From Candidatus Peribacterales bacterium (lineage in GTDB: Bacteria > Patescibacteriota > Gracilibacteria > Peribacterales > Peribacteraceae), in NCBI GenBank assembly GCA_020058765.1, contig JAGVDM010000006.1, positions 62,001 through 126,000 of the forward strand: a stretch of 64,000 bases of DNA, read 5' to 3'. Within the stretch, counting starts at the first letter, position 1; each line of letters starts with the position of its first letter. The notes beneath the pieces are model-generated. The model was given only the letters and a program-made list of their open reading frames with translations. It made no database searches and was not told where the DNA came from. Made by a program: the position numbers and the translations under genes. Below, piece after piece: positions 4,433-34,626 of this stretch.

Positions 4433-7135
4433 TTATGAACGCTGTGCGCGCTTTTCAATTTGCTCCTTGAGTGCCTTGCTCACTTCCGGCACACCGCCGC
4501 TCTTCTCAAGCTTCGTCTGCAGATCAGCAAGCAGCTTTTCCTCTTCGGCTGTGAGTGCTTCTTCGAGTAGCTTCTTTTTGCGCAGCGCATTGAATTCATT
4601 CGTCCACAGTTCGCGGTCACGCCACGTGCGGTACTCCTGCAGACTCATTCCCTTCTTCTTTGCCTTCTCCTTCTCTTCTGCCTCCTTCTCTTTGGCCTTC
4701 GCATCGGATACGGCGGTTTTTTTGGCTTCGGAGCTCCCTAGAGCCCAACGGCGAATCTTCTCTTCTACAACATCGCGCTTCTCGCTGTACTGCTCACGCG
4801 AGAGGCGCCGCAAAATCTGCAAACGATCCACGGTGTCACCTTCCGGTTTTGGCGGCGGTAGAGTGGAAACAGAGAACGGCTTGCTCGGCATACCGTTAAT
4901 CATGAGCCGCATGTACGCGTGGTATTTCGGCAAACTTAGAATGTCGTTGGCAGTCACCGCGAGCTCAAATTGCTCGCTGAACACTTCCGCATCTTCGGCG
5001 CCGATCTGGAAGCTTACAAGCGTACCCACGTTGCCGAACACTGCATCACGAAGCTGTGTATTACCCGTATCACCCAGCAGCAATTGCGAAACGTACTGGT
5101 TGGCCATTGTGAGGCTCAAGCGGTATTTACGCGCCTCCGAGAGGATCGTCGCAAAGCTTGCAGTAGCGAAATTCTGGAACTCATCGACGTATAGGAAGAA
5201 GTCCCGACGCTCCGCCTCTGGTATGTCTGCTCGGCTCATGGCATCGATCTGGAACTTGGTGACCAGCATGGAGCCAAGGAATGCCGATGCATCTTCTCCC
5301 AGTTTTCCTTTGCTCAAATTCACCAACACAATTTTGCCGCTATCCATGGCATCGCGTACGGAGAGTTTGCTCTGCACTTGCCCAACAATATTGCGAATGA
5401 GCGGCGTGCTGAGCAGCTGACCCACTTTGTTCTGAATAGCCGCCACAGCCTCGGTGCGGTATTTATCGCTCCATGAAGCATATTCATCATCCCAGAAGCT
5501 CTTCACCAGAGGATCGCTTACATTGGCGACCACTTTGCGGCGATACTGCTCGTCGGCATACATACGCATGATGCCGAGCATGGAAGAACCTTCGAATTCA
5601 AGGAGTGCGAGGAGCGTATTACGAAGCACGTGTTCCATGCGTCCGCTGAATGTACCCGGCCAAAGCTTGGTAAACACGCTCATCAGGCCAGATGCCGTGA
5701 GTGTGCGCTGCTGTGGATCGGGACAATGCAGGACGTTGAACGAGATAGGATGATCCACATCAGACGGATCGAAGAAGATCACATCATTGCTACGTGACTT
5801 CGGAATACATCGCTGCACGGCTTCGATCAGATCACCGTGCGGGTCAATCACACCCACGCCTCTGCCTTTTACAATATCGGACACAATCATGTTTTCGAGC
5901 AGCGTTGATTTACCCATACCAGTTTTACCGATGATGTAGATGTGTCGGCGGCGATCGTCGGTACGGATGCCAAAGCGCGTACGCCTTCCACGGAACACCG
6001 CCTCGCCCAAATCAGTAATCTGCTCAGGTTCGTCGGTCATGCCCGGCACAGGCAGCTCGTTGGGCGGCTCCAGTTTGCGGCTGGTAACCCAGTCGATATT
6101 CGGCGTCTGCACCAGTGGCGTTGGCAGGTGCCACAGTGTTGCAATCTCCTCCACAGAAAGAGTAAACGGCTGCCGTACAACCCCGCGTGGGATCTGTGCA
6201 GAGACCAAGACACGCCCCGCCTTGAAACCGTTGCTATGCGGGAGTGTGAACTGGCGAAAGCTCCCCACCATTTCCTCAAGCTTCTGTTCAGCAACAGCAC
6301 GCTGCCCCTTGGGGGCAATAACGCTCAAGCGCACATTGCAGAGGAAGAGCAGACGATTCACCTTGTCCTGTGCTGCGCTCACAGCATCTTCACGATCGTG
6401 ACTGCGGGCGCTTACGCGCTCCTCATCGCCATCACTCGGCATTGGTGCATCTTCGGCAATGGGCATGGTGAACAACCGGCCAATGATCGGCCACGCGCGG
6501 AACCCACCCATGAATGTAGCAAGTGGCCAATACGCAAGCCTGCGCCACCCACGAGCCAAACCTACACGTGCAAAGGAATTGGCATAGCGATCCGATGCCT
6601 TGGAGAACCCTCTGCGAAGCAGTGGTAGGAACCGTAATGCTCGACGGCGAAAACCCGAACCAATCGGTGAGACACACACCTGCACATGCCCGCGCATGCC
6701 GGGGATTGGCGAGCGCGACAGCGTAGATGTAATACCAGCAATGGGATCAACGTTTGTGCGAGAGAGGAGATCATCGAACTGTGGATGACGCTTGATGGGG
6801 AAGACTTCTGGCCCCGTCAGCACAAGATCCACGGAATACACCTCCTCCGTATCACTCACCAGGAACGGATCCTTCTGGAGAATATCGATTTCGATATCGG
6901 GATATTGCGCATAGAGCTGGCTCTCTGCGAGGCCGGCCGCACGATCTGTAGCACGCACAAAGAGTGCAATGCGCCCACCAGACATGCCAACTTCCAATCC
7001 CACACCCGCATTTACACCTTTCAATGAGTGCAGCGCAGCAAGCGCGGGCTCGGTGTAGAGCGGTCCCCGTTGGGCCTCTTTTTCCTTCTCCTTGCTTGGC
7101 TTGGAGGGGCGAACTTGGAGGAGTGTGTGTGACAT
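4433..7135 (-). CDS. TraG/VirD4-like (type IV coupling-protein-type) ATPase
   Basis: 900 aa; Walker A IIGKTGMGKSTLLENMI, GVIDPHGDLIEA, Walker B FFLYVDEFQNFA; C-terminal charged tail. Confidence 0.75.
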   Translation of the reverse strand: MSHTLLQVRPSKPSKEKEKEAQRGPLYTEPALAALHSLKGVNAGVGLEVGMSGGRIALFVRATDRAAGLAESQLYAQYPDIEIDILQKDPFLVSDTEEVYSVDLVLTGPEVFPIKRHPQFDDLLSRTNVDPIAGITSTLSRSPIPGMRGHVQVCVSPIGSGFRRRALRFLPLLRRGFSKASDRYANSFARVGLARGWRRLAYWPLATFMGGFRAWPIIGRLFTMPIAEDAPMPSDGDEERVSARSHDREDAVSAAQDKVNRLLFLCNVRLSVIAPKGQRAVAEQKLEEMVGSFRQFTLPHSNGFKAGRVLVSAQIPRGVVRQPFTLSVEEIATLWHLPTPLVQTPNIDWVTSRKLEPPNELPVPGMTDEPEQITDLGEAVFRGRRTRFGIRTDDRRRHIYIIGKTGMGKSTLLENMIVSDIVKGRGVGVIDPHGDLIEAVQRCIPKSRSNDVIFFDPSDVDHPISFNVLHCPDPQQRTLTASGLMSVFTKLWPGTFSGRMEHVLRNTLLALLEFEGSSMLGIMRMYADEQYRRKVVANVSDPLVKSFWDDEYASWSDKYRTEAVAAIQNKVGQLLSTPLIRNIVGQVQSKLSVRDAMDSGKIVLVNLSKGKLGEDASAFLGSMLVTKFQIDAMSRADIPEAERRDFFLYVDEFQNFATASFATILSEARKYRLSLTMANQYVSQLLLGDTGNTQLRDAVFGNVGTLVSFQIGAEDAEVFSEQFELAVTANDILSLPKYHAYMRLMINGMPSKPFSVSTLPPPKPEGDTVDRLQILRRLSREQYSEKRDVVEEKIRRWALGSSEAKKTAVSDAKAKEKEAEEKEKAKKKGMSLQEYRTWRDRELWTNEFNALRKKKLLEEALTAEEEKLLADLQTKLEKSGGVPEVSKALKEQIEKRAQRS

Positions 7136-19939: not shown

Positions 19940-20011
19940 ATGGTGGAGCTGAGGGGAATCGAAGCCTTGAGCCCCCTGCTTGCAAAGCAGGTGCTCTACC
20001 AATTGAGCTAC
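19940..20011 (-). pseudogene. Degenerate tRNA-Ala copy (no pairing 5' acceptor strand, mutated T-stem)
   Basis: Nearly identical to the intact tRNA-Ala from the CCA end through the D-arm, but the acceptor 5' strand is replaced (CTTATCG opposite CAGCTCC) and the T-stem reads AAGGC/CCCCT. Confidence 0.75.
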
Positions 20012-31414: not shown

Positions 31415-31480
31415 GCGATCGCACAATGGCAACAACGCTTGCTGGTCACATTGCCGCAAGCGCTGCTAGGCTGTACCCCG

Positions 31481-32791
31481 ATGCGCATCCCTCTACGAAT
31501 CATCGCACCGGTCGTTCTCGCGCTGTGCTGCGTGGCGGTATTGGTAGGGTTCCTCTGGTGGCAACTGCGCGAATCTGCACAGGATATTCAGCATACGATC
31601 GAAACAACGGGCAACGATCTACCGCTCCGCCCCACCCGTACAATGGAAATCACCCCCGTCGCCGCAGATGGCGATGAGGCGATTGTTCGATTGCGACAAG
31701 GCGATCTGTTCGCATTGCGCGGGCAGTGGAGCGAGGCGCAGCAGGAATACCAACTCGCCGTTGATGCGGGCGGCGACCTGCCTGCCCTGCGCAAATTGGC
31801 GCAAGCGCAGCTGCAGCGCCGGGATATGGATGGCGTGCGCGCCACCATCCGCGACATGAAGAACGCCGGCGCCAAGTCCGAAGATCTGCTACTCCTAGAA
31901 AGCATTGTGCATCTGCGCACCGGAGAACTTGTGCGTGCACGAGAGGTATTGGAAGGTGCGCAAGATTCGCCACAGCAGCATTACGGCCTGGCGCTCCTGA
32001 GCATGGTCGAAGGCTCCCACGAGCAAGCCAAGCAGGAACTGGCCATCGTCATGAACGGCTGGGAACCAGTGCTGCGCGCGAACGCCCGCTCGCTGCAGGG
32101 AGCATACGATGAATTCGCCCTCTTCCCTGAAAGCCCAGAGATCCACCTGGTGACTCTGCTCTCCCGCGCACTGGCACAGGTGCAGGAATGCGAGCTTGCG
32201 CTGCCACTCTTAAACCAAGTAACGCTGCAGCAGGATGACTACCGCGACGCATGGATTGTGCAGGGCTACTGTGAACTCGCGACTGAGCGCCCGGAGCAAG
32301 CGATCATTTCATTGGAACAAGCCTACCAGCTCGATCCGCAGAAACCCGAAACACAATACTTCTTGGGGCGCGCCTACGCGGCATCTGGTGACAGCATGAA
32401 TGCCATTACCTTTCTGGAGTATGCACTCGCCAACGGATTCCAACCCGAGGCGGAAGTGCGCCGAGAGCTTGCTGCACAGGCGCTCATTGCCGGTAACGGT
32501 GTTGTCGCAATGGAACAGTACGCCGCACTCGCACAGCGCGACGATGCAACAATAGAAACATTCGAACAGCTGGCACAAACCAGCCTGGCGCTCGGCGAAA
32601 CTGACCGCGCATTGCTCGCTGGCAAGGCAGCGGCAGAGAAGTTCCCAGAGAACGCCCGTGCATTGCTGCTGCTCGGTACCATGCTCGCCGCAACGGAAGA
32701 CAAAGACGGCGCACGCATTGCCTATCAGAAAGCGCTGCAACTCGATCCATTCCTAAGAGAAGCGGAAGAGAAGCTCCAGGAACTGCAATAA
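31481..32791 (+). CDS. TPR-repeat protein, N-terminal membrane anchor
   Basis: MRIPLRIIAPVVLALCCVAVLVGFLWW anchor; multiple TPR-like repeats (e.g. QPETQYFLGRAYAASGDSMNAITFLEYALANGF). Confidence 0.8.
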   Translation: MRIPLRIIAPVVLALCCVAVLVGFLWWQLRESAQDIQHTIETTGNDLPLRPTRTMEITPVAADGDEAIVRLRQGDLFALRGQWSEAQQEYQLAVDAGGDLPALRKLAQAQLQRRDMDGVRATIRDMKNAGAKSEDLLLLESIVHLRTGELVRAREVLEGAQDSPQQHYGLALLSMVEGSHEQAKQELAIVMNGWEPVLRANARSLQGAYDEFALFPESPEIHLVTLLSRALAQVQECELALPLLNQVTLQQDDYRDAWIVQGYCELATERPEQAIISLEQAYQLDPQKPETQYFLGRAYAASGDSMNAITFLEYALANGFQPEAEVRRELAAQALIAGNGVVAMEQYAALAQRDDATIETFEQLAQTSLALGETDRALLAGKAAAEKFPENARALLLLGTMLAATEDKDGARIAYQKALQLDPFLREAEEKLQELQ

Positions 32792-32796
32792 ACAAA

Positions 32797-32825
32797 AAAG
32801 ACCAGATATAGCCTCTGGTCTTCTT
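32797..32825 (-). terminator. Intrinsic terminator (bidirectional; stronger U-tract on minus strand)
   Basis: AAGACCAGA-TATAGCC-TCTGGTCTT, 9-bp stem; minus strand ends CTTTTTTG. Confidence 0.75.
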
Positions 32826-33119
32826 TGTATGTGTTTGCCTGCTTCATCCGACTATCGGCAACGCTGTAGTAGGTTACTGAGTCGGTCTTTGTAGAAGCGG
32901 ACTGCAGGGAGGAGCCTGCGACTGCTCTGCCGTGATTGGGTTTCTTGTTTCTCCTCGGAACCCGCCGAAGTCCCCGTACCAGGATCACGGGCCCCGCAAG
33001 CGCGGAGGGATCCATGGGGAGTAGGGTGTGCATCCCGTAGAGCGACCTCTCATCATCGGGACGACGTTTCAAAGCAGAGAGGGCAATAGCCACGCAATGG
33101 TGGTGGGCATCGCCCTCTC
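32826..33119 (-). other. Putative structured non-coding RNA / untranslated element of unknown identity
   Basis: No good CDS; hairpin GAGAGGGC(33077-33084)/GCCCTCTC(33112-33119), long-range pairs CCGTGAT/ATCACGG and GCTCT/AGAGC, several small hairpins (CCGA-CTA-TCGG, GCAGG/CCTGC); terminator on its minus-strand 3' side. Confidence 0.4.
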
Positions 33120-33258
33120 AACGTGTTGGTGTTTGTGTGAATGATCGTGATTTCTGTATTCGGAGAAATCTGATTAGTGTACCAAAAATCCCCTTCGAGC
33201 ACAAGTGCGGATTTCGTTTATAGGATGAGCAGGAGAGGTATGGCACACTGTGCCGGAC

Positions 33259-34626
33259 ATGCGCCTAGGGACGTTCCGCACCGCAGGCATGATTCTGCTT
33301 GCACTCCTGGGGAGTGCAGGGCTCCTAGCGCTGCTTGTTACCACAACACTGCTGCTTACGGCACAGTCGAAAGACGCCGCGGACGTGCTCCCGGCAGACG
33401 GAACGATGCTTGTGCTGTTCTCACCATCTGCGACAGATGTAGCACGCGCGGCGACATGGTTCCCTGTGTTGAAGCAGGCGCAGATCCCACAAAGCGCAGA
33501 AGCCGTGGCAATTCTACGGTTACCCAGCAACGAACTAGCAACACTCACACTGGTACGCGGTGCGGATGCTGGCGGGGAGCGCCTTTCCTCTTTCCATGTG
33601 ATCACTACCCAGCCAGAAGCTGTAGCGATGTTGCGCACAACAGAAGCTACGCTCAGCCAACTGCGTCCATTTCGTAGCCTCTCCAGAGCTTGGCAAAACG
33701 AGATGCCGTGGACGTTCCTAGATACCCATGCTCTCCCCGCTACAGACGGCGATGCAGATGCGCTGCTGCGGACGCTACTCTTTGCAGAAAGTCGGTTCGT
33801 TGCACTCGGGACGCACGGCACTCAAGTGGTCTATGACCGCTTCGCAGACGCAAATGACAGCGCAGCAACAGTGACCTCAGGAATAAGCGCATCGGGTTCG
33901 CTCCTCCAGATCACCGGCTATGCGCCATTCACGCAATTCTCTGCGGCAGTACGAGAGCATGCACCTGCAATCCACACCACCCTGCGCAGCGCACTCTTCA
34001 CGGAATTTCATCGTATTGCCGGCGAGGGCGTGAGTTGGGAATTCGATGTAGCACCGCTCCTGGCACAACGAACAACAATCCTTGTGCACCGCAATGGCAG
34101 CGGAGCACTCCTGTTTGCCGCTCGCGGAAATGGCCAATCCGAAGAGCACGTCACCAAAGCAATCGAACGCCTTCGCATGTCTGCTGCCCTGCAAGATGCA
34201 CAGGTGGAGGTGCGCACGCGCACGTTCGATGACCGATTCGAAGCGCGTGACATTCGACTGCGCGAGCAGGAAAGCGGCTTCCAGGAAACGGAGCACAATG
34301 GCTGGCGCAGAATTACGGGGCACAGTGCAGATGGCACAACACCGCTGCTTATGGCACAGAATGGATCTGCATTCGTTCTGGCAAATGACGACGCACTCTT
34401 CGATGCCGCACTAAACGGACAAACACGGGCCATAACGACCGGCACCCTATCTTTGGGGCACATGGATGTAGGAGCACTCCAAACATGGCTGCAACAGCTC
34501 CTTCCTTCTGCGCCTGCTCTTACATCCCCTCTGCTCCCCACAATGAGCACCGGCTCACTCCTTGAGTGGCATAGGGTACGGGAGAATGATCGCATCCGTA
34601 CGATCCTGAAGGCCAGCGAGGCATAA
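33259..34626 (+). CDS. Hypothetical membrane-anchored/secreted protein
   Basis: MRLGTFRTAGMILLALLGSAGLLALLVTTTLLL anchor; DGTMLVLFSPSATDVARAATWFPVLKQ. Confidence 0.65.
   Translation: MRLGTFRTAGMILLALLGSAGLLALLVTTTLLLTAQSKDAADVLPADGTMLVLFSPSATDVARAATWFPVLKQAQIPQSAEAVAILRLPSNELATLTLVRGADAGGERLSSFHVITTQPEAVAMLRTTEATLSQLRPFRSLSRAWQNEMPWTFLDTHALPATDGDADALLRTLLFAESRFVALGTHGTQVVYDRFADANDSAATVTSGISASGSLLQITGYAPFTQFSAAVREHAPAIHTTLRSALFTEFHRIAGEGVSWEFDVAPLLAQRTTILVHRNGSGALLFAARGNGQSEEHVTKAIERLRMSAALQDAQVEVRTRTFDDRFEARDIRLREQESGFQETEHNGWRRITGHSADGTTPLLMAQNGSAFVLANDDALFDAALNGQTRAITTGTLSLGHMDVGALQTWLQQLLPSAPALTSPLLPTMSTGSLLEWHRVRENDRIRTILKASEA

Follow-up and report, generated by a model that had tools for sequence, protein, structure and literature searches.

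Several structured RNAs are the closest described systems to the RNA analysed here. The raiA-motif RNA (ModT) of Bacillota and Actinomycetota is a stand-alone, structured, trans-acting RNA with a single promoter and without constant neighbours (PMC11706538). OLE, ROOL and GOLLD are large, highly structured non-coding RNAs that were found by covariation and whose mechanism is poorly known (PMC12286853); ROOL and GOLLD are linked to phages. 6S RNA (RF00013) is a stand-alone RNA of the housekeeping type, and SRP RNA (RF00169/RF01854) comes into question as the housekeeping RNA that seems to be missing here. SRP subunits are missing in many bacteria of the Candidate Phyla Radiation (PMC8080830).

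The window, a 64,000-nucleotide stretch of DNA, comes from a genome of Candidatus Peribacteria/Peregrinibacteria that spans 1.17 Mb in 10 contigs and is 99% complete. Its analysis revealed a predicted gene for an RNA that resembles raiA/ModT, OLE, ROOL and GOLLD in kind only. This RNA differs from raiA/ModT in lineage and architecture and in having no detectable Rfam match, and from OLE, ROOL and GOLLD in its shorter core and in the absence of homology in Rfam scans. No sequence-structure match to the raiA, OLE, ROOL or GOLLD family models was found, where such models are in Rfam. Unlike the phage-linked ROOL and GOLLD, the RNA is encoded on the chromosome and occurs in nearly all genomes of one bacterial family. 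Its fold is branched and pseudoknotted, unlike that of 6S RNA, and it lacks the GGAA tetraloop/AAGCAG core of SRP RNA.

The gene lies on the minus strand between two plus-strand genes, one for a TPR protein (31439-32791) and one (33250-34626) whose protein has no Pfam match and which precedes secF and a trigger-factor gene. An earlier first-pass annotation had described a structured region between two plus-strand coding sequences. Its sequence and stems are present there and the place was right, but the element reaches about 50 nt farther upstream, to the promoter. In the 5′ to 3′ direction of the minus strand, the promoter comes first, then a hairpin at the 5′ end of the RNA and an unpaired stretch that holds a conserved motif. 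P1 and P2 are next, ahead of the P3/P3a arm, which is long, and the H-type pseudoknot. P5 and the P6 arm come after it, and an A/C-rich spacer leads to the terminator (Table 1). Folded alone, the exact minus-strand RNA was more stable than 100 out of 100 dinucleotide shuffles (z = -4.40). For a slightly larger stretch, z was -4.18 on the minus strand and -1.44 on the plus strand; a plus-strand RNA was rejected, as its fold barely beats the expectation from composition.

Table 1. Features of the RNA gene in window coordinates. Both ends of the RNA are inferred, not measured.
Feature	Position	Strand	Parts	Basis
RNA gene	33170-32794	minus	about 377 nt, predicted start to end of U tract	homology, promoter, terminator
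Promoter (sigma-70-like)	33176..33204	minus	-35 TTGTGC 33204-33199; 17-nt spacer; -10 TACACT 33181-33176	read from sequence
5′ hairpin	33149..33170	minus	GATTTC/GAAATC	counterpart in most homologues
Conserved unpaired motif	33135..33146	minus	GATCATTCACAC (family form GMTCCTTCACAYCAC)	conservation
P1 hairpin	33077..33119	minus	GAGAGGGC 33119-33112 with GCCCTCTC 33084-33077	pairing and covariation
P2 hairpin	33031..33063	minus	CGTCCCG 33063-33057 with CGGGATG 33037-33031; loop GAGGU 33049-33045	covariation
P3/P3a	32971..33020	minus	P3 TCCCC 33020-33016 with GGGGA 32975-32971; inner P3a GGATC 33013-33009 with GATCC 32986-32982	pairing and compensatory changes
H-type pseudoknot	32938..32970	minus	S1 CTTCGG 32970-32965 with CCGAGG 32958-32953; S2 GGGTT 32963-32959 with AACCC 32942-32938; A-rich loop AGAAACAAGA 32952-32943	98-99% of cells paired
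P5 hairpin	32904..32919	minus	GCAGG/CCTGC; loop CUCCUC (family NCCUC)	4 of 4 inner pairs covary; conserved loop
P6	32841..32898	minus	GCTTC/GAAGC, CCGACT/AGTCGG and GTAAC/GTTGC around internal loop CA/YGAU	covariation
Intrinsic terminator	32794..32822	minus	AAGACCAGA-loop-TCTGGTCTT + T6	conservation

The core model of 32 pairs was scored on an alignment of 62 distinct homologues and compared with 500 shuffles. Standard pairs occupy 91.3% of the core cells, against 80.2% after shuffling and 34-55% with the partner slid. Changes on both sides were found for 24 of the 32 pairs (14.7 shuffled) and in 260 cells (76 shuffled). None of the 500 shuffles reached any of the five whole-structure measures for the core, and the same was found for the 3′ domain on four of the five. 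These counts are not fully controlled for relatedness. Covariation among homologues, one of the checks named in the first-pass annotation, is strong.

Among the individual helices, P1 has 89% of its cells paired (45-63% when slid), with 175 paired cells in its variable part against 138 after shuffling, and P2 shows changes on both sides in eight of nine pairs. P3 is 97% paired with compensatory changes in four of five pairs; the corresponding values for P3a are 79% and three of four. In P6, 90% of the cells are paired and 75 cells carry both-side changes (24.6 shuffled). Two stems named in the first-pass annotation, GAGAGGGC/GCCCTCTC and CCCGT/ACGGG, proved to be P1 and P2 and are real and conserved. 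Two others, CCGTGAT/ATCACGG (30.7% of cells paired) and GCTCT/AGAGC (63%), are fully paired in 2 of 62 rows each and are not conserved; judged by the alignment, both are chance pairings in the window copy. A subset of the copies (L037, L047, L073, L074 and L050) has a differing 3′ domain without the CUCAG/GAUAG arm and possibly represents another subtype, one that has a role of its own.

S2 of the predicted pseudoknot was left out of the covariance model (R1, a 175-position core). Across the 62 homologues its fourth pair occurs as UA, CG, AU and GC. The pseudoknot was re-tested on 34 homologues outside the R1 alignment, where 121 of 136 S2 cells are paired (shuffled mean 109, maximum 116), S2 pair 3 alternates between UA and CG, and CUCG/CGAG of S1 is replaced by CUCA/UGAG. 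The pseudoknot was thus confirmed at the level of sequence comparison on further homologues.

Several residues are unpaired yet fixed. They include those of the pseudoknot loop (AGAAACAAGA, invariant), of the internal loop in P6 (CA/YGAU) and of the loops of P2 (GAGGN) and P5 (NCCUC). As the P2 and P5 loops complement each other and are often missing together, a kissing contact between them appears likely. The evidence is suggestive only, with a shuffle p of 0.0006 in a first set of homologues and 0.08 in a second and relatedness uncontrolled, and the predicted contact is not proven. Complementary conserved loops, together with the ornate pseudoknotted fold and disordered A/C-rich linkers, could also belong to an oligomer made of RNA alone, homo- or heteromeric and akin to OLE, ROOL and GOLLD, for which there is precedent (PMC12286853) and in which the two copies would join by loop-loop contacts. 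We regard such an assembly as quite improbable, the RNA being shorter than ROOL and GOLLD and the complementarity being explained equally well inside one molecule.

About 45 homologues carry TTGC(G/A), a gap of approximately 17-19 nt and TACAAT/TACGAT, then GATTTG; in most homologues a hairpin of the GATTTG...CAAATC type stands immediately 3′ of the -10 element. A scan with a strict promoter consensus did not call the promoter of the window copy, which is weak by that consensus. In many homologues (e.g. L010, L015 and L023) a AATGTATTCATAAAACA-like element, perhaps an activator site, occurs approximately 70 nt upstream of the -10 element; it is absent from the window copy. The weak promoter and the lack of this upstream element in the window copy count against the reading favoured below. 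The conserved 5′ motif was matched with at most four substitutions in 47 of the 62 homologues, and a terminator-like hairpin with a U tract follows the A/C-rich spacer in at least 52. The minus-strand terminator proposed in the first-pass annotation is hence real and conserved. Since promoter and terminator are both conserved, the RNA is inferred to be transcribed; no transcript data are available.

Comparison of the element and 20 homologous loci with 4,227 families of Rfam 15 gave no match at curated or relaxed thresholds, which is also the outcome at this locus of the Rfam check that had been named earlier. Neither Rfam 15 nor the literature searched contains this RNA family, which is new in that respect; no new mechanism is shown. 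The earlier suggestion of a novel small RNA on the minus strand is supported by the missing Rfam match, the strong covariation and the near-universal presence in the family.

Near-universal presence, a similar length and a genome without detectable SRP RNA would also be expected of a highly divergent 6S, SRP, RNase P or tmRNA, a reading to which, in the absence of any Rfam score, we give very little credence. RNase P RNA and tmRNA, rightly excluded in the first-pass annotation, are located elsewhere in the same genome (G000:C7:82039-82405 and G000:C4:93-493). The same annotation had considered a divergent 6S RNA, which does not hold: the RF00013 covariance model has no match at the RNA locus, five of eight relatives have weak 6S-model matches elsewhere in the genome, and the fold has no long rod. 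Its exclusion of SRP RNA stands, with neither a model match nor an Ffh-binding S domain at the RNA locus and neither SRP RNA nor the Ffh M domain detected in the lineage. The M domain (PF02978) was absent from all 12 class genomes scanned and found in 14 of 14 controls, which leaves an SRP RNA without a partner, and small SRP RNA was undetected in 96 of 96 genomes, including 39 from sister families in which the present RNA does not occur. Replacement of the SRP was also rejected: SRP RNA and Ffh are undetected in those sister families too, so that SRP loss does not track the RNA, and the RNA is therefore not simply an SRP substitute.

Elsewhere in the window, a third tRNA-like Rfam match (19951-20011, minus strand; 36 bits, above the cut-off) adjoins tRNA-Ala without an ARAGORN call and is possibly a degraded or unusual tRNA.

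Within Peribacteria, the family of tiny uncultured bacteria in the Candidate Phyla Radiation from which the window comes, 56 of 57 genomes were found to carry a homologue. When 96 relatives were searched at the nucleotide level, matches came from 52 of these 57 and from none of 39 others of the class, and the R1 search added four (G014, G031, G051 and G015); G040, the sole family genome without a match, is 75% complete. The rest of a 288-genome sample of the class gave two matches of 18-21 bits, at chance level, and 380 genomes of the phylum gave no match beyond the family. An exact scan for the core motif GGTNNCGAGGAGAAACAAGANACC across 84,980 species returned 39 stretches. Almost all of them bear the label Peribacteria or Peregrinibacteria, and viral contigs yielded no match. 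One motif-bearing contig (L085, JACRJW010000048.1) is labelled Candidatus Uhrbacteria, likely a binning or naming error.

Most family genomes carry two copies, and two common sites keep their gene context across many genera. At the first site the RNA is divergent from the gene at 33250, and at the second it is convergent with a VirD4/TrwB-like ATPase gene (window 4433-7135). In the core tree the two sites are intermixed, with recent lineage-specific duplicates, and both copies of the window genome fall in one well-supported small clade; the idea that each site holds its own cleanly separated ancient paralogue was rejected for this reason. Near-universal carriage in the family, often in two copies, suggests a lineage-specific housekeeping job. 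Seven genomes (G027, G030, G019, G037, G213, G038 and G013) have two copies 26-33 kb apart that face each other. The block between the copies was rejected as a mobile unit, since its gene order is conserved and matches window 4400-33200.

No open frame is shared by the 62 homologues, and a 122-amino-acid minus-strand frame (32725-33093) was for this reason rejected as coding and ascribed to chance. No constant same-strand downstream gene was found at the homologous loci. Nearly all recognised neighbours are divergent from or convergent with the RNA, which argues against a leader of a fixed gene. Pseudoknotted cores are common in riboswitches and omega RNAs, and on this account a cis-acting element (leader or riboswitch) was considered, as was an RNA that belongs to a mobile element or to an RNA-guided nuclease. 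Such a reading remains scarcely credible given the orientation of the neighbours, the lack of any nuclease or transposase among 10 proteins from around the two sites that were scanned with Pfam, the gene context that these sites share in many genera, and the absence of the exact core motif from viral contigs. A phage origin was rejected on the last of these grounds.

The comparative data show the gene boundaries (by homology), the secondary structure, the pseudoknot, the distribution and the non-coding nature of the RNA, as far as these can be read from aligned homologues. By its stand-alone gene, elaborate covarying fold and non-coding nature it meets the description of a large structured trans-acting non-coding RNA, with no data on the abundance of a transcript. 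On balance we lean towards a stand-alone RNA of a new, Peribacteria-confined family that acts in trans, with its folded core as scaffold for a ribonucleoprotein of the housekeeping kind. Its own promoter would start the RNA and the intrinsic terminator would end it. The RNA would then fold compactly, with P1, P2, P3, P5 and P6 around the H-type pseudoknot with its invariant A-rich loop, and the P2-P5 loop contact would probably close the core. The folded core would most likely work in trans by binding at least one protein or another copy of the RNA, and the bound RNA would serve as the scaffold. Loop residues are strongly conserved although unpaired, which speaks for specific binding or a tertiary role and not for antisense pairing. 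The likeness to a ribonucleoprotein scaffold rests on the conserved unpaired loops, the pseudoknot with its A-rich loop and the long unstructured A/C-rich linkers. Trans action and protein binding are inferred without transcript or binding data, and the partner is unknown.

The main rival is a trans-acting regulatory small RNA that works mainly by base pairing, with many mRNAs, or that titrates ribosomes or an RNA-binding protein. The P5 loop CNCCUC resembles an anti-Shine-Dalgarno sequence, the A/C-rich linkers and the GATCNTTCACAYCAC motif are single-stranded, the unpaired pyrimidine loop and the 5′ motif are conserved, and the gene stands alone with promoter and terminator. We nevertheless consider it unlikely; in elaboration and conservation the core goes far beyond typical antisense small RNAs, and the CCUC loop is explicable by contact with GAGG of P2. 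Against the scaffold reading, two-copy genomes and single-stranded A/C-rich linkers could fit a base-pairing regulator equally. A bolder reading, held only tentatively and itself rather doubtful, is that a new RNA machine for a housekeeping task, be it a ribonucleoprotein core, an RNA oligomer or a catalytic RNA, arose a single time in the ancestor of Peribacteria, was kept in essentially all of them and has a job unlike that of any described RNA family.

The novelty lies in an RNA family without a known relative and not in a mechanism. The literature searched contained no paper describing structured RNAs in Peribacteria, and the field appears little explored. Genomes of approximately 1.2 Mb that have shed much biosynthesis have yet kept one or two structured RNA genes (approximately 400-600 nt) in 56 of 57 cases. 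A conserved pseudoknotted RNA unique to this lineage of the Candidate Phyla Radiation offers an entry point to its non-coding RNA biology.
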